58,830 bases of DNA from Deltaproteobacteria bacterium (GCA_016209145.1 JACQWT010000043.1:1-58830); one strand, 5' to 3'. Shown: positions 6,454 to 40,653, counted from the stretch's first letter. Program-made: numbers and translations. The notes: generated from the sequence alone by a model not told the origin.

Positions 6454-6547
6454 TTCGGGCGCATCCTACTCCAGCCTCCAGCTTTGCACTTGCGCTGCCG
6501 GCTTGGATCGCGGACAATCGATCTTGGGTCTGGGTTGCGAGACGGCG

Positions 6548-6561
6548 AGGAGGGCGACATG
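6548..6561 (+). promoter_or_regulatory. Ribosome binding site and ATG before octamer tract
   Basis: AGGAGGG at 6548-6554 lies four bases before ATG 6559. This is the only good start signal near the Cys-rich/kelch gene. From this ATG the frame runs through the GAGATCGA tract and stops at TGA 6706-6708. The Cys-rich reading frame lies in another phase, so the start is uncoupled from it at the present repeat number. Confidence 0.55.
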
Positions 6562-6573
6562 GCCGGCTACCGC

Positions 6574-6630
6574 GAGATCGAGAGATCGAGAGATCGAGAG
6601 ATCGAGAGATCGAGAGATCGAGAGATCGAG
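6574..6630. repeat. GAGATCGA octanucleotide tandem repeat, 7 copies
   Basis: Seven perfect GAGATCGA units plus one base lie directly after the ATG at 6559. Every three units (24 bases) encode EIERSRDR. Because eight is not a multiple of three, loss or gain of a unit changes the downstream frame. With seven units the ATG frame ends at 6708. With six (or nine) it would enter the Cys-rich frame that is open through 6630-6726. This is the layout of a slipped-strand contingency locus. Confidence 0.9.
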
Positions 6631-6725
6631 AGGGCGAGGGCGGAGGCGAGCCCACCCACCACTCGCCGCCCAACTGTTTCCAGGTCGGGTGCCACAGCAA
6701 GGAGCTGACCTGCTGCGCTGTAGCG

Positions 6726-7907
6726 TTGACGCAGGGCAAGTGCGTCAACACGAAGACAGACAAGGACAACTGCGGCGGCTGCGGCAAGAAGTGCGCGAAG
6801 AACCAGGTGTGCCAGGACGGCAACTGCACCGTCATCTCCATCTTCGATCAGGGGCCTCCGGCGCACGTGTTCTGCTCCCCGCCCTGCCTGCCGGGCGAGA
6901 TCTGCGTCTTCGGGCAGTGCCAGAAGCCGGGAGAGGTCGACCACTTCGCCTGCGAGCTCCTGTGCGCGCCCGAGGCCTGCTGCAACATGACGTGCATCGA
7001 CACGACGAGCGATCCCAACAACTGCGGGAGCTGCGGCAACATCTGCGCGGCGGGGACGACTTGCTGCGCGGGCGCGTGCGTGAACCTCCTGACCAACTGG
7101 GCGAACTGCGGGGCGTGCATGAACACCTGCCTTGCGGTTCAGGACTGCTGCGCCGGCTCGTGCCTCGACGTCTGGTTCAATCCGGCAAGCTGCGGCGGGT
7201 GCGGCAACGTCTGCGCCCCCAACAATCCCAATTGCTGCTTCGGCCAGTGCACCAATAGGCAGACCGACGTGCACAACTGCGGCGTCTGCACGACCGAGTG
7301 CCCGAGTGCACATGCCTGCTGCGCGGGGGCCTGCCAGCCCATCTGTGCCTCTAATCTCGACTGCGAGCCCGGACAGCTCTGCGACAAGGCAACCGGCTGC
7401 TGTGCCGTGTTTGGCCCGGGCACGCCGGGCCTGCCCGCGAGCGACACCTGGTCGCCGACCTCGACCGAAGGGGCGCCGGCGCCGCGGACCGAGCACCGTG
7501 CTGTCTGGACTGGCTCGCGGATGTTCGTCTGGGGTGGCGGGGTCAAGGAGGAAGGACACACCTCCACCGGCGGGCTCTACGATCCGGCTTCCGACACCTG
7601 GACGCCCACATCGACGAAGGACGCCCCGGCGCCCAAGGCCAACTACCCGCCGCCGCTCTGGACGGGCGACCGCGCGATCGTCGCCGGAGGAGACATCCCC
7701 GGCTCCCCGCTCGGGCCAAGCGGGCTCTATGACCCCGAGCCCGACACCTGGACGCCGATTGACCTGGATGCCGCGCCCGAGGGCTTCTACGTCGCGGCGG
7801 CGGCCTGGGCCGGATGCCGGGCCATCTTCGTGGGCTCCCAGTACAACGTTGAGGACCAAAGCTCCCGGCCCGCCGCCTGGGCCTACGAGCCAGCGCCTCT
7901 GAGATGA
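6726..7907 (+). CDS. Cys-rich repeat protein with kelch-like C-terminal repeats
   Basis: The in-frame start available is TTG 6726, which has no ribosome binding site. The frame is open upstream through the octamer tract and encodes further Cys-rich sequence (NCFQVGCHSKELTCC), so the true N-terminus is probably ATG 6559 with a different repeat number. Residues 1-230 contain five or more copies of a 30-40-residue module of the type NCGxCGxxCxxxxxCCxGxC, common in exported myxobacterial proteins and often misannotated. Residues 235-393 contain three repeats of the form SDTWSPTSTEGAPAPR...AVWTGSRMFVWGG...GGLYDP, which match kelch beta-propeller blades. Three blades are too few for a closed propeller, so the C-terminus may be truncated. 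No signal peptide is visible in any phase. Confidence 0.7.
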   Translation: MTQGKCVNTKTDKDNCGGCGKKCAKNQVCQDGNCTVISIFDQGPPAHVFCSPPCLPGEICVFGQCQKPGEVDHFACELLCAPEACCNMTCIDTTSDPNNCGSCGNICAAGTTCCAGACVNLLTNWANCGACMNTCLAVQDCCAGSCLDVWFNPASCGGCGNVCAPNNPNCCFGQCTNRQTDVHNCGVCTTECPSAHACCAGACQPICASNLDCEPGQLCDKATGCCAVFGPGTPGLPASDTWSPTSTEGAPAPRTEHRAVWTGSRMFVWGGGVKEEGHTSTGGLYDPASDTWTPTSTKDAPAPKANYPPPLWTGDRAIVAGGDIPGSPLGPSGLYDPEPDTWTPIDLDAAPEGFYVAAAAWAGCRAIFVGSQYNVEDQSSRPAAWAYEPAPLR

Positions 7908-11491: not shown

Positions 11492-12211
11492 ATGCCCTGG
11501 GTGCGCGCCCGGCTTCGCGGCCAACTCGTCTACGCCCGCGCCGACGAGCGCGGCGAGCTCGCGAGCGAGTCCGGCCGCGTGGAGATCCGCTACCGGCCCG
11601 ACGACGGGCGGCTGTACCGGGCGGCGGCGCGCAACCTCGAGCTGCTGGGCCAGGCCCTGCTGCCCGACGCGACCTGTGCCCCGGCCGAGCCCGCCAGGCG
11701 ACGCAGCGAGGAGCGACCCGCCGCAGCAGCTCCGGCGGGTATCCGGCCCGACGCGGGCGCGCCCCTCAAGCTCGGCGCTGGCACGGCCGATGCCGTGGTT
11801 GCCTTCACCGATGGGGCCTGCCAGGGTAATCCCGGTCCGGCTGGCCTCGGCGTGGTGGTGCTCGCCCCCGGCGAGCGCATCGAGCTGAGCGAGTACCTGG
11901 GCCGGGGCACCAACAACGTCGCCGAGCTGACGGCCATCCTGCGCGCCGCGGACGAGATCGGCCGCCGGCCGGGGACCATCTTCACCGACAGCAAGTATGC
12001 CATCGGCGTCGTGCAGAAGGGCTGGAAGGCCAAGGCCAACCGCGAGATAGTGGCGGACTTGCGCGCCCGGCTCTCGGGCCGCGGCGCCGCGCGTCTGGTA
12101 TACGTGCCCGGGCACGCCGGCGTGGGCCCCAACGAGCGCGCGGATGAGCTCGCACGCCAGGCCATCCTCCGGCGCGCCTCCAGCCGCGTGGTTCATGCGG
12201 ACAAGCAGTAG
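11492..12211 (+). CDS. rnhA: Ribonuclease HI with N-terminal extension
   Basis: The C-terminal 145 residues are a complete RNase HI that cleaves the RNA strand of RNA-DNA hybrids. The four acidic catalytic residues are visible in order: FTDGACQGNPGPAG, NNVAELTAI, FTDSKYAIG and NERADELA, with the catalytic-loop His in VPGHAGVG. The first 95 residues are not the usual eukaryote-type hybrid-binding domain; they form a short beta-rich stretch (MPWVRARLRGQLVYARAD...) and a Pro/Ala linker of unknown role. The gene starts 10 bases after the preceding lipoprotein and 18 bases before gpmI. Confidence 0.9.
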   Translation: MPWVRARLRGQLVYARADERGELASESGRVEIRYRPDDGRLYRAAARNLELLGQALLPDATCAPAEPARRRSEERPAAAAPAGIRPDAGAPLKLGAGTADAVVAFTDGACQGNPGPAGLGVVVLAPGERIELSEYLGRGTNNVAELTAILRAADEIGRRPGTIFTDSKYAIGVVQKGWKAKANREIVADLRARLSGRGAARLVYVPGHAGVGPNERADELARQAILRRASSRVVHADKQ

Positions 12212-12229
12212 CCACTGGCAGAGCCAACG

Positions 12230-13867
12230 ATGCACAGCCAAGCCCGTCCCCGTCCCGTGGTGCTTTGCGTGCTGGACGGCCTGGGCGAGCGCACCGAAGC
12301 CGCGGGCAACGCGGTGCTCCTGGCGCGTACTCCCGAGCTCGACGCGCTGCGCGCGCGCTTCCCGCACACGGCCCTGCGCGCGAGCGGTCCGGAAGTGGGC
12401 CTCGCCGAAGGAGCGCCCGGCCGCAGCGACCTCGGCCATCTCACGCTTGGCGCGGGCCGCGCCGTGCCGGCGGTGGGCGGCCGGATCGACGAGGCGGAGC
12501 GCGGCCGGCGCCTGGGCGCGAACGACCAGATCGATCTCGCCCTGCGTATCGCTGCCTACGACAACAGCAGGCTGCACCTGCTCGGGCTCGTCTCGGACGG
12601 TGGCGTGCACTCGTCCTTCGAGGCGCTGCTCGCCCTCATCGACGCGGCCGACTTCCGCGAGATCCCGGTGGTGGTGCACGCCTTTCTGGACGGTCGCGAC
12701 TGCCCGCCGCAGAGCGCCATGGGCTACCTGGACCGGCTCGCCCTGCACCTCGAGGGCAAGGGGATCGTCGGCACCGTGGCCGGCCGCCACTACGCCATGG
12801 ATCGCGGCGGCCACTGGGACCGGACCTATGCGGCCTTTCACGCCATCGTGCGCGACCACGTGCTCGGCCCCGAGGCGCCGCGCGCCGATACGCCCTTCGA
12901 CGCGGTCTCCCAGGCGTACGCGCAGGGGCTAGCCGACGCCCAGGTGCCGCCGACGCGGATCGGCGACTACCAGGGCATCAGGGGCGACTTCATGTGCGAC
13001 TTCGCGGCCAGCCGGCCGGAGTGGATCTGGACCGGCGAGGAGATCGGCCTGGCCTTCAACATCCGCGGCGACCGCATGCGGCAGCTCACGAGCATGCTCA
13101 CGGGCCAGGGGCTCGCGCCGGAGATTGCCCTGGATCTGCTCACCGATCGCGGGAAACCCGTGCTCGCTTTCCCCGAGAGCCACTACTTCTGCCTCACCGA
13201 GCCCGGCCCGGGTGTGGCCCTTCCGGTCGCCTTCCCGGCCGAGCCGGTGCGCGCCACGTTGGGCGAGGTGCTGGCCTGGGCCGGGATGAAGCAGCTTCGC
13301 CTCTCCGAGACGGAGAAGGCATGCCACGTGACGAGCTTCTTCAGCGGCGGCAGGATCGAGCCCTTCGCCGGGCAAGAAGACCGCATCCTCGCCTCACCCG
13401 TGCTCGGCGAAACCTACGCGGAGCACCCGGAGATGAGCGCGCCCGCCCTCGCCGAGGAAGCCAGCCGCGCCGCCGGCACGGGCGCGTTCGACTTCATCTT
13501 GGTCACGTTCGCCAACCCGGATGCGGTGGCCCACACGGGCGATCTCTCCGCCACGGTGCGGGCCGTGGAGGCCGTCGATGCGGCCGTGGGGCGGATCGCG
13601 CGCGCCGTGCACGCTCGGGGCGGGGCGTTGCTCGTGACGGCGGCCCATGGCAACTGCGAGCGCATGATTGACGTCGCGGGCTCGCCGGATCCGAGCCACA
13701 CTGCCAGCCCGGTGCCGTTCATCTGCGCTCTCGAGGCGTCCGACCCGACGGCGCTGCTCCAGGGGGGGCAGCTTTGCGACGTGGCTCCCACGATCCTCGC
13801 GTTGCTCGGTCTGGAGCCGCCGGCGGCGATGAAGGGCCGGTCGCTGCTGCGACCGCGGGGTGGCTGA
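12230..13867 (+). CDS. gpmI: 2,3-bisphosphoglycerate-independent phosphoglycerate mutase, divergent
   Basis: The family interconverts 3- and 2-phosphoglycerate through a phosphoserine and two metal ions. Visible landmarks are VVLCVLDGLGE (metal Asp), GRSDLGHLTLGAGR (nucleophilic Ser about residue 66), LVSDGGVHS, HAFLDGRDCPP, GRHYAMDR, NIRGDRMRQLT, NPDAVAHTGD (Asp430, His434) and HTASPVPFI (metal His). At 545 residues the length is normal. One key position differs: the canonical ADHGN, whose Asp and His bind metal 2, reads AAHGN here (GCC at 13643-13645, residue 472), and NSEVGH reads GRSDLGH. The enzyme may be altered or inactive. It sits between rnhA and a pseudokinase gene, 27 bases before the latter. 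Confidence 0.85.
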   Translation: MHSQARPRPVVLCVLDGLGERTEAAGNAVLLARTPELDALRARFPHTALRASGPEVGLAEGAPGRSDLGHLTLGAGRAVPAVGGRIDEAERGRRLGANDQIDLALRIAAYDNSRLHLLGLVSDGGVHSSFEALLALIDAADFREIPVVVHAFLDGRDCPPQSAMGYLDRLALHLEGKGIVGTVAGRHYAMDRGGHWDRTYAAFHAIVRDHVLGPEAPRADTPFDAVSQAYAQGLADAQVPPTRIGDYQGIRGDFMCDFAASRPEWIWTGEEIGLAFNIRGDRMRQLTSMLTGQGLAPEIALDLLTDRGKPVLAFPESHYFCLTEPGPGVALPVAFPAEPVRATLGEVLAWAGMKQLRLSETEKACHVTSFFSGGRIEPFAGQEDRILASPVLGETYAEHPEMSAPALAEEASRAAGTGAFDFILVTFANPDAVAHTGDLSATVRAVEAVDAAVGRIARAVHARGGALLVTAAHGNCERMIDVAGSPDPSHTASPVPFICALEASDPTALLQGGQLCDVAPTILALLGLEPPAAMKGRSLLRPRGG

Positions 13868-31132: not shown

Positions 31133-32098
31133 TCACCCCAGCACATCGACGAGCCGCGCCACGGGGCGAACCTGCACCGTGCGCTCGGGACCGAGCCGGA
31201 TCTCGATCGGGGCATGCTGGGGATTGGCGCTCATGAGCTTGAGCCGGCGCTGCCGGCCGATCTCCTCGACCCGGACCCGCTTGACGCTGTACGCGCCGCC
31301 CGTCTCCGGATCGTCGAGGCCACGATGCTCGAGCAGCATCACCGCGCCATCTTCCAGAGCGTCCGTCGCGGCGAAAAGGCAATAGGCGCCGTCGGGAATG
31401 AGCGGCTCCATCGAGCGGCCGCTTGCCCGCGCCACGAACATCCCGCGCCGCAGCCGCCGCTCGGTCTGCGGAACCACGTACGCCGCCGCCTCGACCGCGC
31501 TCGGCGCCCCCGCCCGGCCCGCCGCGGCACGCAGCGAGAGCAGGGGTACGCACCGGGAAGCGCCGTCGGAGAAACGCGCCAGCCGGAACGGCGGGCCGAT
31601 CGGCACCGGCTCCGCCGCGGCGGCACGCGGCGGCCGACCGGGACGGACCTGCATCTCGCGGGGAGGCTCGATCAGTGCCGCCAGGGGCACCTCGAGCTCG
31701 CGGGCCAGCCGCAGCATGGTCTTCAAGGTGAGGTTCTGCAGGCCGCGCTCGATGCGCTGGTAGTACTTGGGGGCCACGCCCAGGCGCACGGCGAAGCTCT
31801 CCTGGGTGTGGCCCCGGGCGCGCCGCAACTCGGCGACGCGCCGCCCGACCTGCCTGATCGTGGCCCGCTCCTCGTCCACGCCCGCAGCTTCGGCCGGCCG
31901 GCTTGGCGCGAACACTCCTGCCCAGGGTTCCCATTGGCCGGCCGCCGCCCGCAGCCACTCCTCTCCCGGCGAGCGCGCGCACAACCCCCGGCTGGGGTAC
32001 GTCGAATTCGGCAGGGGATCCCTCAGGCGGCTGGAGCGAAGAACCCCCGCGCCACGAGCTCCCCCCATGAGCACCCCCGCGCATGCCCGCAAAGACAC
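31133..32098 (-). CDS. XRE-type regulator with S24 (LexA-like) autoprotease domain
   Basis: The helix-turn-helix lies at about residues 85-140: VAELRRARGHTQESFAVRLG, then VAPKYYQRIERGLQNLTL. The C-terminal half has the LexA/CI-type serine-lysine protease fold. ARASGRSMEPLIPDGAYCLF gives the nucleophilic Ser, and GGAYSVKRVRVEE the general-base Lys. An AAAGRAG stretch before it could supply the Ala-Gly cleavage site. The protein is thus likely a self-cleaving repressor responding to DNA damage or stress. The first 72 residues look like non-coding extension; GTG 31879, just before the helix-turn-helix, is a plausible later start. It is divergent from the SPFH operon and probably controls it. Confidence 0.85.
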   Translation of the reverse strand: MSLRACAGVLMGGARGAGVLRSSRLRDPLPNSTYPSRGLCARSPGEEWLRAAAGQWEPWAGVFAPSRPAEAAGVDEERATIRQVGRRVAELRRARGHTQESFAVRLGVAPKYYQRIERGLQNLTLKTMLRLARELEVPLAALIEPPREMQVRPGRPPRAAAAEPVPIGPPFRLARFSDGASRCVPLLSLRAAAGRAGAPSAVEAAAYVVPQTERRLRRGMFVARASGRSMEPLIPDGAYCLFAATDALEDGAVMLLEHRGLDDPETGGAYSVKRVRVEEIGRQRRLKLMSANPQHAPIEIRLGPERTVQVRPVARLVDVLG

Positions 32099-32295
32099 GC
32101 CCGACGTGCCGGAAGCCGGCCCCGTGCCGGGGTCGGCCTATGGGCAAAGTCTGGAAGCGGTCCAGACAAACGCCGGACAAGGAGGGCAAGCACACTGCAT
32201 CATGGCACAGTCCTGCGGGCTTGCAAGGCATACGGGGTCCCCGCGCCTGCCGCCGAGGGCTTCACAAAGACAACTTCACAGAGTACCCTTTTGCC

Positions 32296-34575
32296 GTGTC
32301 CGGGGCGAAAGCAGTGGGCGGTGGGCGTGGCCGGGCGCCGGGAGCGCGGCCGGCGGAGCAGGCAGCGCGTGGCGGAGCCGAGCGCCGCGTGCTGGGCCGG
32401 CCGATCGAGCAGGCCGAGAGCTTCATGGCCGAGGTGGCAGCGCTGTTCGCCGAGGGCGCCGCGCGCGAGGCGCAGGGCTTCGTGCGCCTGCGGCAGCTCG
32501 AGGCGGAGCTCGCCCAGGCCGAAGCCGGCGGGCGCGAGCTTGGCCCCGGCCTGGCTGCGGCGCAGCGCCGCGCCGCCGCCGCCGCCGAGGAGCTTGCCGC
32601 GATCCAGCAGGCCGGCCCCGGACCGGCCGAGCGGCGCTTCCCCGTGCTCGTCGGAGCGGGAGTGTTCGGCCCGTGCGTGCTCTTGGCGGTGCTCGCGGTC
32701 GCGGGCTTGCCGGGCACGGGCTTCCTGCTCGGCGTTGCGGGTTTTGCGGCGTGCGTCGTGGTGGCCGTGGTCCAGCGCAACGCCGAGCGCGCGGCCCGCG
32801 CGAGCCGGCAGCGCGAGGCCGCGGGGCGGAGCGCGGAGGCGCACGCGCAGTGCACCGCCGCGAGCCAGAAGATCGAGCAGGCGCGCGGGCGCCAGGCCAC
32901 CCTCACGAAGGAGCGCGAGCGCGTCCGTCCCCAGCGGCGGCTCAAGGTGGTCGGCCGCGTGCACGTGCCCGTGACCGTGGTCGAGCTCGCCGGCTATCCG
33001 ATCGTCGTGGACCGCTCGGGCGCGAGCCCTGCGGTGGCGCTGCGGCTGCCCGACCTCGCCGCCAGCCCGGCCGTGCTGGAGCGCGTGGAGCGGGCCGTCG
33101 CGCGGGCCAAGGCCAGGCCCGTGCTGCTCGAGCCGCGCGGCGCGGAGCCGAGCGAGCTCGGCGCTCTGCACGGCGAGGAGCGCGAGCTGCAAGAGGCGCT
33201 GGCGAGCTTCTCCGAGATGCTGGCCGGCACGCCCACGGTCGAGGTCAGCCTGCCGGTGCTCGCCAAGGGCTCGGGGCTGGTGCGCTACCTCGAGGCGCAC
33301 CAGGAGCACGCCGCGCCGGCCGACGCCCCCGCCCTGCTGCTGCGCGCCCGCTCCGACGACGCCGCGGCCATGGCGCGCGTCTCGGAGGTGGCGGCGCGGC
33401 TGCGCGGCTTCGGCCGCAAGATCGACGCGGCGGTGCGCGGCGCGCACCAGGGCCTGCGCGAGGTGCTCGACGCCTACCGTGATTTACGCGCGGACGCGCT
33501 GCAAGAGCTGCACGCCAAGCTCCACGAGGTGCTCTTCCGCACCGATCTCGCCTACGTCGTCTACCACTGCCCCAAGTGCAACCGCGTGCCCGCTTACCTC
33601 TTTCGCCGCGTCGGCATCGACGAGCAGGCCGCGCACGAGATGGACCCGGAGACGCTGCTTCGCGCCCTGCAGGAGGAGTCCGAGACCCGCGAGCGGCTTG
33701 CCGCCGATCCGCAGCTCCTCACGGAGCTGGGGCAGTCGTGGAGCGCCCTGCGCGGTCTCGATGCGGGCATCACCGCGCTGCGGCCGCAGGCGGGCGGCGG
33801 CGCGCCGGCCGATGCCGGCCTGGTCGCGGTCCACGCGGGAGAGTCGCGCCTTCGCGCCATGCAGGCCCAGCGCGCGCGGGCGCTGGAGCAGTTTCGCGCC
33901 TGCCTGCGCAAGGCCGTGACGGGCAACGCCCGGCCGCTGCTCGACCTGTCGACGCAGGCCCGCCTGCTGCTCGATCCGGACACCGGCGCCTGGTCGTGCG
34001 CTCTGTGCCGCACGAGCTTCGACGATCCGGAGGCGGCGCGCCTGGGCCGGATGCTCAAGGTCAAGAGCGAGCTGCTCATGCCCATGTGGAACCACCTCTG
34101 GACGGAGAAGGACGACTTCCGCAAGTCGGAGCTGTTCCGCACGAACGAGCAGATCCAGCGCTTCATCGAGAAGGAGGTCGCGGCGCTGCGCGAGGTGAGC
34201 GAGCAGTACCGGGCGGACATGCGGCCGGTGCGCGAGAACCTCATCCTGTCCACCACGGACGCGGCAACCAAGCGCGAGCAACTCGAGGCGACCGTGCAGA
34301 GCCTGGTGGCCCTCGGGGCGATGCCCGCCGAGCAGGCCGAGCAGTCGGTCGGACGCATCGCCGCCCTGACGGGCGGCGACCTAGCCGCCTTCCGCCGGCA
34401 CGCCGAGCTGCGGGAGACCGTCCTGAACCAGATCCCGCAGGCGGTGCTGGGCCTGAGGCTCCCGGCGCTCGATCCGCTGGACGTGCTCTTGACCCCTGAG
34501 GCGCTGTTCCGCGAGGCGCAGGCGCAGGAGCGGCTGCGCCTGGCCGAACCGGGCAGTGCGGGAGCGGAGCGATGA
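32296..34575 (+). CDS. Membrane-anchored coiled-coil protein with two CxxC knuckles
   Basis: The frame is open upstream to 32083, but that part overlaps the divergent regulator; GTG 32296 is a plausible start without a good ribosome binding site. The 759-residue product has an N-terminal coiled coil (FVRLRQLEAELAQAEAGG), a hydrophobic hairpin at about 118-158, a second coiled coil (AARASRQREAAGRS), and a long mixed domain. VVYHCPKCNRVPAYLF (Cys about 425 and 428) and WSCALCRTSF (about 568 and 571) could form one zinc ribbon. The C-terminal 200 residues are helical. The stop overlaps the next ATG by four bases. No known family is recognised, although zinc-ribbon membrane partners of SPFH proteins (as in Bacillus ydjG) are a functional parallel. 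Confidence 0.7.
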   Translation: MSGAKAVGGGRGRAPGARPAEQAARGGAERRVLGRPIEQAESFMAEVAALFAEGAAREAQGFVRLRQLEAELAQAEAGGRELGPGLAAAQRRAAAAAEELAAIQQAGPGPAERRFPVLVGAGVFGPCVLLAVLAVAGLPGTGFLLGVAGFAACVVVAVVQRNAERAARASRQREAAGRSAEAHAQCTAASQKIEQARGRQATLTKERERVRPQRRLKVVGRVHVPVTVVELAGYPIVVDRSGASPAVALRLPDLAASPAVLERVERAVARAKARPVLLEPRGAEPSELGALHGEERELQEALASFSEMLAGTPTVEVSLPVLAKGSGLVRYLEAHQEHAAPADAPALLLRARSDDAAAMARVSEVAARLRGFGRKIDAAVRGAHQGLREVLDAYRDLRADALQELHAKLHEVLFRTDLAYVVYHCPKCNRVPAYLFRRVGIDEQAAHEMDPETLLRALQEESETRERLAADPQLLTELGQSWSALRGLDAGITALRPQAGGGAPADAGLVAVHAGESRLRAMQAQRARALEQFRACLRKAVTGNARPLLDLSTQARLLLDPDTGAWSCALCRTSFDDPEAARLGRMLKVKSELLMPMWNHLWTEKDDFRKSELFRTNEQIQRFIEKEVAALREVSEQYRADMRPVRENLILSTTDAATKREQLEATVQSLVALGAMPAEQAEQSVGRIAALTGGDLAAFRRHAELRETVLNQIPQAVLGLRLPALDPLDVLLTPEALFREAQAQERLRLAEPGSAGAER

Positions 34576-35753
34576 GCAACGGCGGCGTCACCGAGAGCCA
34601 GGTGCACGCCATCGTGCGCGGCTACGTGGAGCCGGTCGCGCGGCAGGTGGGCGCGCTGGAGGAGGAGATGGGACACGTCGGCAGGGCCGTCGAGCACATG
34701 AGCGACAGGCTGGCGGAGGGCTTCAACAAGCTGCTCGGCGAGGGGCACTCGCTGCGCGAGCTGACGCGCGAGATTGGCGTGGGCACTAGCGCCCAGCTCA
34801 CTAGTCTGCGCGGCGAGAGCGCCAGCGGCTTCGCGTCCGTGACCGGGGGGCTGGCGGTGGTGGACGCACAGGTGAAGCAAGTCGACGAGAGCGTCGAGGA
34901 AACGACGAGCGCGGTGGAGCAGATGACGAGCGCCGTCGTGCAGATGGAGGTCATCCGGCTGCTCAACGAGGCCAAGGGCCCGATCGAGCGGGCCAAGGGC
35001 TTCGTGCAGGAGATCGATCAGCGCTTCGCCAAGGCAATCGAGAACGTCGCCTTCGTCCAGGCCCAGTACGACGAGCTTCTGGCCAAGGTGACGGCCGAGT
35101 ACGACCGCAAGCTGCGGACCATCGGCGAGCACATCTTCCGGATCTACGAGCAGGACTTCCGGGAGCGGGCCGAGATCCCGATGACGACCCCCGCGGAGGC
35201 GCATCTGGATCTGGCGCTGGCGGTCGACGAGCGCTGGCTCAAGGCGCGCTCGGACGGCTTGGAGACGAACCTGGCCGAGCTCGGCGAGGCCGTGCTGGAG
35301 CCCCTGCTGCGGGCCCACGCCGAGTTCGAGGACGCGCTGGCGGGGCAGCTTGCCTGCCAGGCGCCGGTCGTGCAGGGGGAGCTCGCGCTGCCCGCGGCCG
35401 TGCGCGTCGTCGTGGAGGACGGCGTCGAGCGGCTCCAGGTCGTGGCGGGAAGCCGCATCGAGCCCGTCGCGCGACCGCAGGCAGACGCCGCGGGGCCGCC
35501 CTTCCGCTTCGCACGCGCCGCCGCGGCCGAGGAGATCGCCGCCCTGGTCGAGCGCCGCGCGCCGGCGATCCTCGAGGCGCTCGGCCTTGCCACGAAGGCC
35601 CTCGGGCCTGCCGGGATCGAGGCGCTCAAGCAGGAGCTGGCGAAGATGGCGGAGCAGGGCCTGCTCGAAAAGACGCTCCTGCCGGGCTACGCCGACTACC
35701 TCGACGCCTTCGGCCTGGAGGTGGTCACGGACGCGGAGGTCACGCAGCGATGA
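34572..35753 (+). CDS. Coiled-coil protein of SPFH operon
   Basis: The 393-residue product is predominantly alpha-helical. Residues 30-140 have dense heptads, including VVDAQVKQVDESVEETTSAV and EQMTSAVVQMEVIRLLNEAK, resembling methyl-accepting or syntaxin-like helical bundles without a known signature. A middle segment (EHIFRIYEQDFRERAEIP) and a Glu/Leu-rich C-terminus follow. No signal peptide or membrane segment is present. ATGA overlaps on both sides show translational coupling to the upstream knuckle protein and downstream beta-helix protein, implying fixed stoichiometry. It could play the structural role of PspA, but the length and pattern do not match PspA. Confidence 0.75.
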   Translation: MSNGGVTESQVHAIVRGYVEPVARQVGALEEEMGHVGRAVEHMSDRLAEGFNKLLGEGHSLRELTREIGVGTSAQLTSLRGESASGFASVTGGLAVVDAQVKQVDESVEETTSAVEQMTSAVVQMEVIRLLNEAKGPIERAKGFVQEIDQRFAKAIENVAFVQAQYDELLAKVTAEYDRKLRTIGEHIFRIYEQDFRERAEIPMTTPAEAHLDLALAVDERWLKARSDGLETNLAELGEAVLEPLLRAHAEFEDALAGQLACQAPVVQGELALPAAVRVVVEDGVERLQVVAGSRIEPVARPQADAAGPPFRFARAAAAEEIAALVERRAPAILEALGLATKALGPAGIEALKQELAKMAEQGLLEKTLLPGYADYLDAFGLEVVTDAEVTQR

Positions 35754-36802
35754 GCGAGCGGCGGGACGGAGACCGCGTGGTCGTGACCGGCTACAGCGCC
35801 GGGAGCCACTTCCCGCGCACGCAGGCCGAGACGCAGCAGCGCTTCGAGGCCAACGGGCTGTCGCCCGAAGGGCCCTTCTACATCGACGGCTCGGTCTACG
35901 GACGCGACCTGCGCCTGCGCGGGCCGGGCACGGTGGCCGGCCCCGTGCTCGGCCGGGGCGACGTGACGCTCGACCACGACGGCAAGGGCGTGCAGCGGCT
36001 CCTGGGCGGCGTGCACGCCAACGGCAACCTCGTGGCGCTGAGCCGCGGGGCCGGGCTGCGCCGCTCGCTCGTCGCGGCCGTCGACGCCGCCAAGTACGTG
36101 GTGCGCGGCGACGCCGGCGGCGAGCACGTCTCGCTCCAGAATGCCGTAGTGCTGGGCAACGTGCACGGCGGGCAGATCCAGCTCGTGCACTGCATCATCT
36201 TCGGGCAGGTGCTCGCCAAGGAGGCCGTGGTCGTCACGGCGAGCACGCTGCTCGGCTACGGTGCGCCCCGCGTCACGTTTCTCGGGCCCTGCGCCGTGCT
36301 GTTCGCGTCGGGCGTGAGCGACGCCCGCCCCGAGCTCGGCCCCTGGCGAGACGGCGACGGCCAGAGCTGGGAGCCCGACGTGCGGCTCCACCCCGTGCTG
36401 CGCGCCGCCGGCTACGGCGCGCTGACCAATCGGCCCTGGGAGATCGAGGGAGCGGCCGGGCGGCTGTGCCCGGCCGACTGGGTGCGCATCGACGCCGAGA
36501 GGCCGGTGCGCAAGATCCGCGACGGCCGGATGGTGGAGAGCATCGAGCCGGTCGAGCGCTACGTGCTCTCCATTGCGGGCCGGGTGCTCAACCTTCGCCC
36601 CATCGCCGAGCAGATCGAGCACGTCTCGTGGATGCTGCGCACGGCGCTGGAGCTCGATCACTACCACCCCAACACCCAACAGGAGATCCGGCGCCGCTGG
36701 GCCGAGCGCTGCACCGCCGACGAGCGGCAAGTGCTCGAGCTCGCCACGCAGCTCGAGGCGGGCGGGCCGGCGCCCCTGGCGGCAGCGGGGTCCAAGGCGT
36801 GA
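35750..36802 (+). CDS. Beta-helix, bactofilin-like protein of SPFH operon
   Basis: In this 350-residue protein, residues 45-190 consist of short beta rungs rich in Gly and Val: GSVYGRDLRLRGPGTVAG, GGVHANGNLVALSRGAG, AAKYVVRGDAGGEHVSLQ, NAVVLGNVHGGQIQLVHC. This pattern is like polymer-forming bactofilins or pentapeptide-like solenoids. The remaining half is mixed and ends in helical heptads (ADERQVLELATQLEAGG). It could form a filament or patch under the membrane. ATG 35750 overlaps the preceding stop by four bases, and a gap of 33 bases precedes the SPFH gene. The bactofilin analogy is from pattern, not homology search. Confidence 0.65.
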   Translation: MSERRDGDRVVVTGYSAGSHFPRTQAETQQRFEANGLSPEGPFYIDGSVYGRDLRLRGPGTVAGPVLGRGDVTLDHDGKGVQRLLGGVHANGNLVALSRGAGLRRSLVAAVDAAKYVVRGDAGGEHVSLQNAVVLGNVHGGQIQLVHCIIFGQVLAKEAVVVTASTLLGYGAPRVTFLGPCAVLFASGVSDARPELGPWRDGDGQSWEPDVRLHPVLRAAGYGALTNRPWEIEGAAGRLCPADWVRIDAERPVRKIRDGRMVESIEPVERYVLSIAGRVLNLRPIAEQIEHVSWMLRTALELDHYHPNTQQEIRRRWAERCTADERQVLELATQLEAGGPAPLAAAGSKA

Positions 36803-36835
36803 CGGCCCGGCGGCGGGGCGGCGAGGGCGGCTAAC

Positions 36836-38491
36836 ATGGGCCTGTTCGGTTTCGTCAAGAAGTCGGTCTCGGATCTGTACGTCGCGCGTCCCGACGCCGC
36901 GGCGCAGCTCCTCGTGTGGCGCTACCCGGATCAGAGCATCCCCAATGGCGCCAAGCTCACGGTGCGCGCCGACGAGACCGTGCTCTTCTTCAAGGAGGGG
37001 CGAGTGTTGGGGGAGCTGCCGCCCGGCACGCACCAGCTCGAGACCAAGCACCTGCCCTTTCTCGGCGACCTCTTGGTTTCGCCGCTGACCGGCGACAACC
37101 ACTTCCTGACCGAGCTGTTCTTCGTGCGTCGCACCGAGCACCTGCACCAGGTGCCCCACGACGTGCAGCAGCACGGGCCCCGGCCGCTCGGCAAGTTCAG
37201 CGACGTGGCGTCCCGGCACGTCGTGGGCCTCTACTTCGTGGCCCGCGTTGGGCTGCGCGTGACCGACGCCACGCGGCTCATCCTCGCGCTGGGCGGCGTG
37301 CAGGAGGGGGCCGCGGACCAGGTGGCCGCCTTCCTCGATGCGCGCCTGTCCTCGCTCGCGGCGGCCGAGGTGGGCAAGCTCGTGGCCTCCGAGCCCATCA
37401 TGCAGGTCGCTTCAAACCAGTACAGCGAGGAGCTCGGGCAGCGGCTGGTGGAGCGGGCGCGGCCGGCGTTTGCGCCCGACGGGCTCGAGATCACGCGGTT
37501 CCTGGAGCTGGAGCTTCACCTGGATCGCGAGTCCGAGGAGGCGCTGCGCGACTTCGGGCGCAAGATGGCCGAGCTCAGCGTGCAGCGCGAGGGGGCCGAG
37601 GTCGCGGCCCAGCCCGGCTTCGCCCAGTACCATCTCGTCCAGGGGCAGCGGGCGGCGATGGAAGGGGCCGCCGCGGGCATGGCGCAGCACGGCCTGCCGC
37701 TCCTCGGCCTGGGGCTCGGCGCGGCGCCGCTCGGCGGCGTGCTGCCGCTGGGCGGCATGCCAGCCGCGTCGCTGGCTCCGTTCGGCGCTGCGCCTGCTCC
37801 CGCGCGCCTGCCGGCCCCGCCGCGCGCGGCCGCGGCGCGCTGGTATCTGCGCTCGTCCTCGGGGATCGAGGGACCCTACGGCGCGCGCCAGCTCGTGCTG
37901 CGCGCGCGCGCCTGCAAGCTCGAGGCGGCCTCGGCCCTGGTGCGCCAGCAGGGCGCCGAGGACTGGATAGGCGCCGACGAGGACCAGGATCTTGCGGCCG
38001 AGTTCCGGCGCCGCGCCGCAGGCGAGACGACCCCCACGCCCACGCCCGCCGCCCTGGCGGCGCGCTCCGAGCGGGACGGTTTCGAGCGCGCGCTCGGCGT
38101 GGCGGCGGCCGACGGGGTGCTCACGGCCGACGAGCTGGGGCTTCTGGCCGACATGGCCGCGTCGATCGGGCTCGCCCCCTGCGCCGAGGACGCCCAGCGC
38201 TACGTCCTGTCGCGCGCGCGAGCCCTGGGCTGCCGCATCCCCGCCGAGACGGCCCCGGGCACGCTGGCGGCCGGCGCGCCCACCGCAGCGGCGCCGCTGG
38301 CCGCGCCCGGCGCCGAGCCGGTCGGCCCCTCCGGCACGCCCGCGCCACCGGCGGGCGAGAGTGCGGCCGACCTGGAGCGGCAGCTCGATCAGCTCGGCGA
38401 ACGGCTGGCCGAAGGCAAGATCGGCGAGGAGACGTACCACAAGCTAGCCGCGCGGCTGGAGGCGCGGCTGGCGCGGGCAAGAGGGGCATAG
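36836..38491 (+). CDS. YdjI-like SPFH/Band 7 protein with GYF_2, TerB-like and SHOCT-like modules
   Basis: The N-terminus is diagnostic: MGLFGFVKKSVSDLYV, then LLVWRYPDQSIPNGAKLTVR, ADETVLFFKEGRVLGELPPG and THQLETKHLPFLGDL match the YdjI/virion-core branch of SPFH proteins. SPFH helices continue to about residue 260. Residues 333-385 (RWYLRSSSGIEGPYGARQLV...) are a GYF_2 domain. Residues 405-450 (FERALGVAAADGVLTADELG) resemble the TerB helical fold. Residues 513-550 (LERQLDQLGERLAEGKIGEE) are a SHOCT-like bihelical end. YdjI in Bacillus acts with PspA in membrane stress; an oligomeric membrane-patch role is likely here. GAGGG before ATG 36836 supports the start. It is the last gene of the operon. 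Confidence 0.85.
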   Translation: MGLFGFVKKSVSDLYVARPDAAAQLLVWRYPDQSIPNGAKLTVRADETVLFFKEGRVLGELPPGTHQLETKHLPFLGDLLVSPLTGDNHFLTELFFVRRTEHLHQVPHDVQQHGPRPLGKFSDVASRHVVGLYFVARVGLRVTDATRLILALGGVQEGAADQVAAFLDARLSSLAAAEVGKLVASEPIMQVASNQYSEELGQRLVERARPAFAPDGLEITRFLELELHLDRESEEALRDFGRKMAELSVQREGAEVAAQPGFAQYHLVQGQRAAMEGAAAGMAQHGLPLLGLGLGAAPLGGVLPLGGMPAASLAPFGAAPAPARLPAPPRAAAARWYLRSSSGIEGPYGARQLVLRARACKLEAASALVRQQGAEDWIGADEDQDLAAEFRRRAAGETTPTPTPAALAARSERDGFERALGVAAADGVLTADELGLLADMAASIGLAPCAEDAQRYVLSRARALGCRIPAETAPGTLAAGAPTAAAPLAAPGAEPVGPSGTPAPPAGESAADLERQLDQLGERLAEGKIGEETYHKLAARLEARLARARGA

Positions 38492-38829
38492 GCGCTCGCC
38501 AAAAACCCCACGATGGCAACGACGGCGGCCGATCCATCTGCGCGGGCCGGCGCGGCGCCTCGGCCGCCGGGCGATTGCCTGCTTTGTGCCTATGGGCAAG
38601 AGGGGGCTGAGCGGGCGCACGCCAGGCGCGCCGCGACACCTGTCCGTTCACTGCCGCTTGGCGGCACGCTGCGCAACCCAGGAGCGATCCCGGGTCGAAT
38701 CACACAAAGCGTGTGATTCGACGGTCGATCGCCGACCGTTCGCCATCCGAATCACACGTTTTGTGTGATTCACCGGTCGAACGGTCGCACGAGGGAACCC
38801 TCGCGCCGCGGGGGTGCGGCATTCGTGGA
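38492..38829. other. Intergenic region between convergent operons
   Basis: No supported gene. The first 200 bases are GC-rich without clear structure. The last 130 bases contain three hairpins: two with identical GAATCACAC arms and one with ACGGTC/GACCGT arms between them. They probably end transcription from both directions. Confidence 0.6.
38697..38771. terminator. Pair of identical GAATCACAC hairpins (bidirectional terminator or operator)
   Basis: GAATCACAC (38697-38705) pairs with GTGTGATTC (38711-38719) around AAAGC. The same arms recur at 38749-38757 and 38763-38771 around GTTTT. Between them ACGGTC/GACCGT forms a third small hairpin. The arms are markedly AT-richer than the surroundings. 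The position between convergent stops favours a bidirectional terminator; two identical 9-bp palindromes could also bind a repressor. Confidence 0.6.
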
Positions 38830-40653
38830 TCAGTGCGGCGCGGCGGCCGGCAGCGCGCCGATGAGCGGGACGAGCCGGCCGCCCGCCAGCCGTTCGAGAT
38901 CCCCTGGATCGGCGTTGCGGCCCGAGGCGAGCGTGCGCACGACCCGCGCGGCGAGCCCCGAGCGCTCCCGGTGGGAGGCGTACCAGCTCTCGATGCGGCG
39001 CCGCTCGCTCTCATCCGGCTCGGCCTCGAGGTCGAGAGTCACGACGGGGCCGGAACATTCGACCGTGGCCGCCCCCAAGGCGCGCAGCCACAGATCGAGC
39101 ATCGCGTTCTTGTGGTCGCGCTCCACGCCGGGGCGCTCCTTGACCAGTGCGGCGAGCGCGGAGCGGATCGATGCCTCCTCGTCGTGCAGGTGGGCGCTCC
39201 AGTCCCGCCGCAGATCGCCAAGCGTGCGCTCGGCGCTTTCGGATGCCTCGGCGTCCCGGGCGAGCAGGGCGAGGCGTAGGCGAAAGCCGTGCTCCTCGGT
39301 CCAGGGCACGAGCCCGCTTCCGGCGCCGCGCAGCCCCGGCGCGACGTCCTGCACCATGGAGGCGTCGCGATCCGCGGGCACGAGCTTCAGCTCCCGCAGC
39401 TCGGAGAGCCGCATCTGCTCGAAGACCAGGTCGAGCGCCGCGGCGACCGAGGCGGCGCCCGGCAGATCGCCCGAGCCCACGGCCGCCTTGACCCAAGAGT
39501 AGCCCGCCAGCGGCGCGCCAAGCTCGCCGAGGGCCCCGGCGGCCGCGCCCGGCTCGGATGCCGGCCGGTCGTAGGCGCGCACCAACTCGTCCACGGCCGC
39601 GAGCTCGCCCGCGAGCCAGTGCCCCTCGACGAAGGCCAGCGACGGCGCCTCGCCGCCGCACTGCCCGGCCGCCTCAGGCGGCGCGCGGCAGCCTCCGGCG
39701 TGCTCGCCCCAGCTCCGCTCGGCCAGCGGCGGATCGAGATCGGGCAGCGCCCGGCCCGCCGCCGGGAAAATCCGCGCCTGCGCCGGCCTCTCGCCACCGG
39801 CCCCGAGCGAGACGACGAAGAAGGAGCTGTCCTTGCCCAGCCCGGCCCGCGCCAGGTTTCGGCCGCAGCGCAGCGCGAGCTGTGTGGCCGCGAGCCGCGG
39901 CCCGAGCGCCCGGGCGAGAGGCCGTAGGTCTACCTCGCCCGGGTCGGGGCCCACGTTCATGAGCGCGCGGTAGACATCGCTGCCGTCGCCGGCGCAAGCC
40001 GCCTCGGAGAGCAGCGACCAGAGCGCCGCCTCGGGCAGGCTTGCCGCGTCCCGGTGCGAAGGCAGGGCTGCCTGTGTGACCAGCGCCGCCCGCTGCATGG
40101 CGCACGTGCTCCGGGGCAGCCGCGCCGCTTCGTACGGCACGAGCGGCTCGCGGCCGAGCAGGCGGACCCCGACCAGCACTGCCGCGGCGACCGCCGCGAC
40201 GGCCACGAGAGCGATGGCCGCCGCGACACGCACGCGCGGCACGCGCCGCGGCTGCGCCCGCCCCGGCCCGCGTGCCGGCGCCGCCGCCACCTTCTTGGCC
40301 GGGGTGCGAGAGGCGGGAGCGAGTGCGGGTACATCGAGGACGGTATCGGCGACAGCCGCGGCCACGGCTTCGGCGCACACAATCGTCGATCCCGGCGGGG
40401 TGTCGGCCGCAAGAGCCGGTGCCGGCTCGTCCGGCGGCGCGGCAGCAGCGGCCCCCGGTGCCGGCTCGTCCGGCGGCGTCGTCTCGGCGAGCAGCTCCGC
40501 GAGCGGCACCCACGGCTCGCTGCCCTGCGCCCTGGCGCGCGCCTGCGGCGGCAGCTTGCCGGAGGCGAGGGCTCTGCGGATCTGGTCGATCGTGACCGGC
40601 CCGACCACGCGCTCCTCGTCGATCGCGACCTCGTAGCGGACGGCGTCGTCCAT
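38830..40653 (-). CDS. GYF_2-domain membrane protein
   Basis: ATG 40653 begins MDDAVRYEVAIDEERVVGPV, then TIDQIRRALASGKLPPQARA and EPWVPLAELLA, a complete GYF_2 domain (residues 1-55). A Pro/Ala linker follows, then one transmembrane helix at about 145-170 (VRVAAAIALVAVAAVAAAVLVG). The remaining 430 residues lie outside the membrane and contain several cysteines (CRAPPEAAGQCGG). No enzyme motif is seen. The GYF_2 domain, shared with the convergent SPFH protein, suggests the two bind the same Pro-rich or polymer partner. The longer frame to 40920 lacks coding character. Confidence 0.75.
   Translation of the reverse strand: MDDAVRYEVAIDEERVVGPVTIDQIRRALASGKLPPQARARAQGSEPWVPLAELLAETTPPDEPAPGAAAAAPPDEPAPALAADTPPGSTIVCAEAVAAAVADTVLDVPALAPASRTPAKKVAAAPARGPGRAQPRRVPRVRVAAAIALVAVAAVAAAVLVGVRLLGREPLVPYEAARLPRSTCAMQRAALVTQAALPSHRDAASLPEAALWSLLSEAACAGDGSDVYRALMNVGPDPGEVDLRPLARALGPRLAATQLALRCGRNLARAGLGKDSSFFVVSLGAGGERPAQARIFPAAGRALPDLDPPLAERSWGEHAGGCRAPPEAAGQCGGEAPSLAFVEGHWLAGELAAVDELVRAYDRPASEPGAAAGALGELGAPLAGYSWVKAAVGSGDLPGAASVAAALDLVFEQMRLSELRELKLVPADRDASMVQDVAPGLRGAGSGLVPWTEEHGFRLRLALLARDAEASESAERTLGDLRRDWSAHLHDEEASIRSALAALVKERPGVERDHKNAMLDLWLRALGAATVECSGPVVTLDLEAEPDESERRRIESWYASHRERSGLAARVVRTLASGRNADPGDLERLAGGRLVPLIGALPAAAPH

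Follow-up and report, generated by a model that had tools for sequence, protein, structure and literature searches.

A rare and apparently undescribed four-gene operon of Myxococcota with a three-gene core kept in the same order in archaea

The locus considered here lies between positions 31133 and 40653 of the window, i.e. the whole analysed stretch of 58,830 nucleotides, a single contig from a draft genome of 7.9 Mb (Deltaproteobacteria bacterium). It raises the question of which of its six genes, g1 to g6, belong to one system and what such a system might do. A sequence-only reading had proposed a self-cleaving XRE-S24 regulator divergent from four same-strand genes, with a convergent GYF_2-TM gene added, as a stress- or phage-responsive membrane machine induced by damage. 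The genes are the following.

31133..31879, minus strand: g1, XRE-S24 regulator, a neighbour only (HTH_3 7.6e-13, Peptidase_S24 4.1e-9; PHROG repressor 1e-18)
32389..34575, plus strand: g2, membrane-anchored zinc-ribbon coiled-coil protein, with orthologues at seven other Myxococcota/marine loci and six archaeal loci
34572..35753, plus strand: g3, soluble helical/coiled-coil protein with a conserved GEHI(F/Y)..DF core (hhalign to archaeal h3 5.4e-8)
35750..36802, plus strand: g4, beta-solenoid, bactofilin-like protein (hhalign to archaeal h4 4.9e-15)
36836..38491, plus strand: g5, SPFH (Band_7_1, 1.7e-15) protein with GYF_2 and a conserved helical module
38830..40653, minus strand: g6, convergent GYF_2-TM protein, a neighbour only (GYF_2 6.8e-7)

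The four plus-strand genes, g2 to g5, were found as had been read and span 32389-38491. Coupling of three of them was likewise borne out, the g2/g3 and g3/g4 junctions being ATGA overlaps (-4 and -4), and the gap from g4 to g5 is 33 bp. GTG 32389 is the likely start of g2 (alternatives 32296 and 32425) and was picked by alignment with the M(K/R)IxGxxVEGA starts of its relatives. All four are regarded as real genes, because their frames are open, their third positions are dense in G/C (about 0.91-0.95) and they have diverged homologues.

The earlier proposal depended mainly on whether the genes occur together in other genomes, and the same gene order was indeed found elsewhere. Six other Myxococcota genomes (L043, L044, L045, L046, L050 and L073) carry g2-g3-g4-g5 in the same order and on the same strand; in L046, g2 is truncated by the contig end, and L073, which has all four genes, belongs to a different class of Myxococcota. 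A marine MAG contig (L051) holds g2-g3 and then ends. L050 and L051 came from a scan in which conserved blocks of g2 were compared with about 85,000 species genomes, and L073 from a phylum sample queried with g4. Protein identity of g2-g5 among the Myxococcota loci was about 30-55%, and L043-L046 showed about 33-63% identity to the window per aligned segment. The g2-g3 and g3-g4 junctions were mostly between -8 and +11 bp across the loci, the longest being 65 bp, and the flanks of the operon were unrelated from locus to locus; the tight junctions and differing flanks indicate that the operon structure is kept while its surroundings change. Since this order is kept, the flanks vary and homologues of g1 and g6 are missing at the other loci, the conserved unit is g2-g3-g4-g5. 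The operon had thus been recognised correctly, but its limits had been set too wide, as the S24 gene and the GYF_2-TM gene fall outside it.

Both of these genes are real. In g1, the predicted domains were detected together with the Ser (31414-31412), the Lys (31282-31280) and the Ala-Gly (near 31522-31517) of a self-cleaving regulator. The g1 ORF drawn to 32098 is overlong, probably by about 200 bp, as the HTH begins near 31850, and a GTG start at 31879 or 31915 is more likely. No g1 homologue was obtained by tblastn in L043-L046, L050, L051, L053, L061-L066, L073 or L079. The sole resemblance to g6 at homologous loci was a GYF_2 domain at the C-terminus of g4 in L044. Because both are missing from every homologous locus, the S24 gene and the GYF_2-TM gene are regarded as local neighbours; the former was dropped as a component of the system and the latter as a partner, and the description of the operon as S24-regulated is unsupported. 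That the operon is a defence or stress cassette under S24 control, inducible by damage or phage, is therefore very improbable. Such a cassette would account for the divergent XRE-S24 gene with its Ser, Lys and Ala-Gly, for the patchy distribution and for the transposase-type genes found near several archaeal copies, but besides the lack of g1 elsewhere, the PADLOC matches of g2-g5 amounted to weak coiled-coil similarity only, the neighbours did not resemble defence islands as judged by the ORF lists of the loci alone, and the region between g1 and g2 contained only G+C-rich palindromes and no clear operator or sigma-70 site. No carriage by, or relatives in, viruses, phages or plasmids were found for the queries tried, and g2, g4 and g5 had no PHROG match. 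With an S24 gene that is not conserved, no convincing defence match and no viral relatives, the proposal of a damage-induced, stress- or phage-responsive machine was not upheld. A Ser/Thr kinase was also rejected as a recurrent partner; it was seen at three bacterial and two archaeal loci, but the motif occurred in six of the ten SPFH loci used as controls, and no kinase enrichment near the operon in Myxococcota was shown relative to these controls.

The g2 block scan also returned an archaeal locus, L053 of Halonotius aquaticus, in which an ORF with a short g2 match precedes two further ORFs, for a coiled-coil and then a beta-helix protein. Sampling of archaeal genomes with the third of these proteins (h4) yielded L061-L064 and L079, so that the trio h2-h3-h4 is present at six archaeal loci (L053, L061, L062, L063, L064 and L079). 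Comparison of bacterial and archaeal families by hhalign gave 2.3e-19 for g2/h2, 5.4e-8 for g3/h3 and 4.9e-15 for g4/h4, against 0.004-0.18 for reversed sequences and 0.06-0.78 for cross-family pairs, and HMMs of one domain of life retrieved solely the matching family in the other, in both directions. Next to the archaeal trio no SPFH gene was observed; its neighbour in L053, L061 and L062 is a gene for a protein with TM and HEAT repeats. That each of the three genes has its own counterpart, independently and in an unchanged order, points to g2-g3-g4 as a functional unit which either predates these lineages or was passed between them, and the order of the trio in archaea suggests an old membrane-scaffold machine.

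The genes are rare in both domains. In samples of 22-99 genomes, on which these figures rest, g3 turned up in five of the 97 genomes from the window's order (the window's own included), always with g2, g4 and g5; a match was found in one of 22 genomes of the order of L073; and h4 was matched in 6/99 Halobacteriales genomes. One archaeal copy is interrupted, h2 of L061 apparently by a transposase-like gene, and two are fragmentary; transposase-type genes lie close to several archaeal copies. Patchy distribution and the interrupted h2 of L061 fit an accessory role better than one in core cell architecture. These observations, and the apparently aquatic origin of several bacterial MAGs, which we infer, could also be explained by a selfish or accessory cassette that spread horizontally between halophilic or aquatic archaea and bacteria and encodes a niche-specific surface or buoyancy-type structure. 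We consider this unlikely, as the bacterial and archaeal families share only about 17-23% identity, which speaks against recent exchange, and no surface-structure genes were consistently adjacent.

The membrane anchor of the proposed unit would be g2, in which the following features were located.

32644..32763, plus strand: N-terminal TM segment(s) of g2 (hydropathy 2.0-2.5)
33568..33579, plus strand: first half of the zinc ribbon, CPKC (CPxC in 11/11, bacteria and archaea)
33997..34008, plus strand: second half of the zinc ribbon, CALC (W-x-CxxC in 11/11, bacteria and archaea)
34087..34122, plus strand: signature WNHLWTEKDDFR, nearly invariant in bacteria and archaea

A TM segment close to the N-terminus was present in all full-length g2 and h2 proteins examined, and the four ribbon cysteines were kept in all 11 g2/h2 sequences compared. 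The two cysteine pairs are about 140 residues apart in bacterial g2, whereas in archaeal h2 they are separated by about 20 residues, the spacing of a normal zinc ribbon. Because the archaeal copies place the same pairs close together, bacterial g2 carries one zinc ribbon with an insertion of about 120 residues; of the membrane protein with two CxxC knuckles described before, the TM segment and both CxxC motifs hold, but not the two separate knuckles. The ribbon cysteines are followed in g2 and h2 by a near-invariant (W)xxLWxEKxDxR motif, and the signature from this part of g2 served to retrieve family members among the approximately 85,000 genomes. Neither g2 nor g3 had a convincing model in Pfam, NCBIfam, PADLOC or PHROG, and the AF2 model of g2 (mean pLDDT 61) was too uncertain for use of its fold.

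The coiled-coil nature proposed earlier for g3 agrees with a low-confidence AF2 model (mean pLDDT 47), which predicted it to be mostly helical. It had no TM segment. As a substitute for PspA or ESCRT-III, g3 was rejected: no PspA_IM30 match was found, and the AF2 model was too poor for fold comparison.

The beta-helix assignment of g4 was supported through its archaeal homologues, but not by a direct Pfam match of the window copy, which had none. The h4 protein of L053 exceeded the cut-off of Pfam Bactofilin (PF04519, 1.3e-6), while the other five archaeal copies were sub-threshold for Bactofilin or left-handed beta-helix (LbH) families, some of them matching the latter equally well or better. 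Since most copies are sub-threshold for either, bactofilin-like beta-solenoid appears to be a fair description of g4, and its polymerisation is only putative. C-terminal fusions of g4 were found to GYF_2 in L048 and to DUF6982 in L047. No TM segments were found in g4 and g5, except that a C-terminal extension of each holds a single hydrophobic stretch of borderline strength.

On the 3' side of g4 in 7/7 Myxococcota loci lies g5, in which two domains were delimited.

36914..37552, plus strand: SPFH domain of g5 (Pfam PF13421, residues 27-239)
37841..37981, plus strand: GYF_2 domain of g5 (Pfam PF14237, residues 336-382)

PF13421 was matched by the four g5 relatives scanned with values of 2.6e-14 to 8.7e-13. 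GYF_2 was sub-threshold in the window copy (0.0023) but above the cut-off in L052 (5e-6) and L073 (3e-11). A weak SHOCT-like match (0.19) was obtained at the C-terminus of the window copy alone, and at this place the aligned relatives have a second GYF_2-like sequence. No Pfam model for TerB was matched by the window copy at E up to 1 or by the four relatives at E 0.1-0.5. Of the modules previously assigned to g5, SPFH and GYF_2 therefore hold for the family, TerB fails, and the SHOCT-like tail is weak and confined to the window copy.

The pairing of an SPFH gene with one for a zinc-ribbon TM protein recalls Bacillus subtilis, in which YdjI, an SPFH protein, is placed at the membrane only with the help of two membrane proteins, YdjG and YdjH (PMC8581546); YdjG has a zinc ribbon and TM (PMC11237479). 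The operon might thus be a variant of the pspA-ydjGHI membrane-repair module acting in envelope stress, with g5 as YdjI, g2 as the anchor and PspA supplied from elsewhere. The YdjI-type Band_7_1 domain of g5 agrees with this, as does the union of a zinc ribbon and TM in g2, which YdjG shares (PMC11237479; PMC8581546). A PspA would also be at hand; its absence, as stated earlier, is true of the cluster, where no PspA (PF04012) match was found in g1-g6, but not of the genome, which encodes three PspA_IM30 proteins, all on other contigs. Such a variant nevertheless seems doubtful. Neither PspA nor a TPM-domain protein was found in g1-g6 or recognised in the homologous operons, Pfam giving no YdjH-type TPM match in g2, g3 or g4 at E up to 1; g2 matched no NTF2/YpeB-like and g5 no zinc-ribbon model of Pfam; and no SPFH gene was seen adjoining the archaeal trio, so that the SPFH part lies outside the conserved core.

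We give a probability of about 0.5 to the reading that the four-gene operon encodes a membrane-anchored cytoplasmic scaffold. The TM segment of g2 would lie in the cytoplasmic membrane, with its coiled coils, zinc ribbon and LWTEKDDxR motif facing the cytoplasm; g3 would be a soluble coiled-coil linker, and g4 a bactofilin-like beta-solenoid capable of self-assembly. In bacteria, g5 would form an SPFH membrane-associated assembly held by g2, much as YdjI needs YdjG/YdjH, and its GYF_2 modules may hold partners. Acting together, g2-g5 would lend order or stability to a membrane patch. The g2-g3-g4 core may be ancestral or may have moved between the domains, SPFH having been added in bacteria or lost in archaea. 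The physical complex, its polymerisation and orientation and the membrane-organising function are what we infer from the encoded proteins. Against a scaffold stand the frequent occurrence of g5-type SPFH proteins without the trio (they were found in 15/20 related genomes, and the loci fetched from these lacked g2, g3 and g4), the window g4 without Pfam match, the archaeal copies closer to left-handed beta-helix families, the AF2 models of g2 and g3 too poor for use, and the patchy distribution with the interrupted h2 of L061. More tentatively, g2 might hold a bactofilin-type polymer at the membrane by way of the g3 linker, with SPFH added in bacteria, and this might constitute a so far unrecognised cytoskeletal membrane system that extends across Bacteria and Archaea.

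The main interest lies in a rare, putative scaffold operon of four genes whose three-gene core has the same order in Myxococcota and archaea, and the order of three unrelated proteins kept between these groups is strong evidence for joint action. If confirmed, the operon would tie bactofilin-type scaffolds genetically to SPFH membrane proteins, and the way in which bactofilin-like proteins attach to membranes could be tested in both domains. The haloarchaeal members could allow such testing, as genetic tools exist for related haloarchaea.

Among known systems, the B. subtilis pspA-ydjGHI operon likewise combines a YdjI-type SPFH protein and a zinc-ribbon TM protein, likely in a membrane-associated complex; the present operon differs in having no PspA and no TPM-domain YdjH, in its extra coiled-coil and bactofilin-like genes and in an archaeal version without SPFH. 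The operons of PspA with band-7 and CesT/Tir proteins (Ravi et al. 2024, PMC11237479) share band-7 and sub-membrane assembly partners and SHOCT-like tails, but they are all PspA-centred and the g2-g5 set is not described in the excerpts of that study; the word 'bactofilin' does not occur in PMC11237479. SPFH, coiled coil and zinc ribbon also recur in archaeal membrane machines, as in the SPFH-ESCRT contexts of PMC10936438, but no ESCRT-III/Vps4 was recognised at the g2-g5 loci, and no bactofilin is found in PMC10936438. Profile searches against the PDB gave no meaningful match. A full-text search of a limited collection found no literature pairing 'bactofilin' with 'SPFH' or 'flotillin', and the rare four-gene operon is apparently undescribed. 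To the bactofilins (PF04519), finally, the g4 family is similar in its beta-solenoid and in one archaeal member above the cut-off; it differs from them in a window copy below detection, in its greater length, in its conserved C-terminal part and C-terminal fusions, and in being encoded together with g2 and g3.

Homologues of the zinc-ribbon TM protein g2, the coiled-coil protein g3 and the bactofilin-like g4 form an archaeal trio, flanked in three loci (L053, L061 and L062) by TM proteins with C-terminal HEAT repeats, which may be its archaeal partners:

L053:5706-6800, HEAT-repeat TM protein
L053:10429-11688, HEAT-repeat TM protein
L061:7300-8592, HEAT-repeat TM protein
L062:5164-6150, HEAT-repeat TM protein

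The g2 homologue of L061 (10310-12999) appeared to be split by a transposase-like gene on the opposite strand (11845-12660), suggesting that the trio is dispensable in this locus. Fragments of g4 homologues, apparently decayed copies, were observed where g2 and g3 were absent:

L065:8988-9170, g4 fragment; a TnpB-like gene lies at 6510-7838
L066:8646-8930, g4 fragment

Kinases were located near the trios of L053 and L079, as in the bacterial locus L073. Among bacterial loci and in the window, the following genes and regions were recorded:

L073:1356-5761, two overlapping genes immediately after the operon, one for a Ser/Thr kinase and one for an M48 protease-TPR protein, each with a zinc ribbon
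L048:12061-14007, directly downstream of g5 (SPFH and GYF_2), protein that combines a zinc ribbon with a TM segment at its C-terminus, resembling nothing in the other loci
window:28646-31108, protein resembling a lipoprotein, in which a transglutaminase-like core is accompanied by five motifs of the MopE copper-binding type
L051:980-1730, proline-rich GPPPL/GPPALD repeats in the long N-terminal extension of the marine g2

The last of these, the repeat extension, is a possible GYF ligand.
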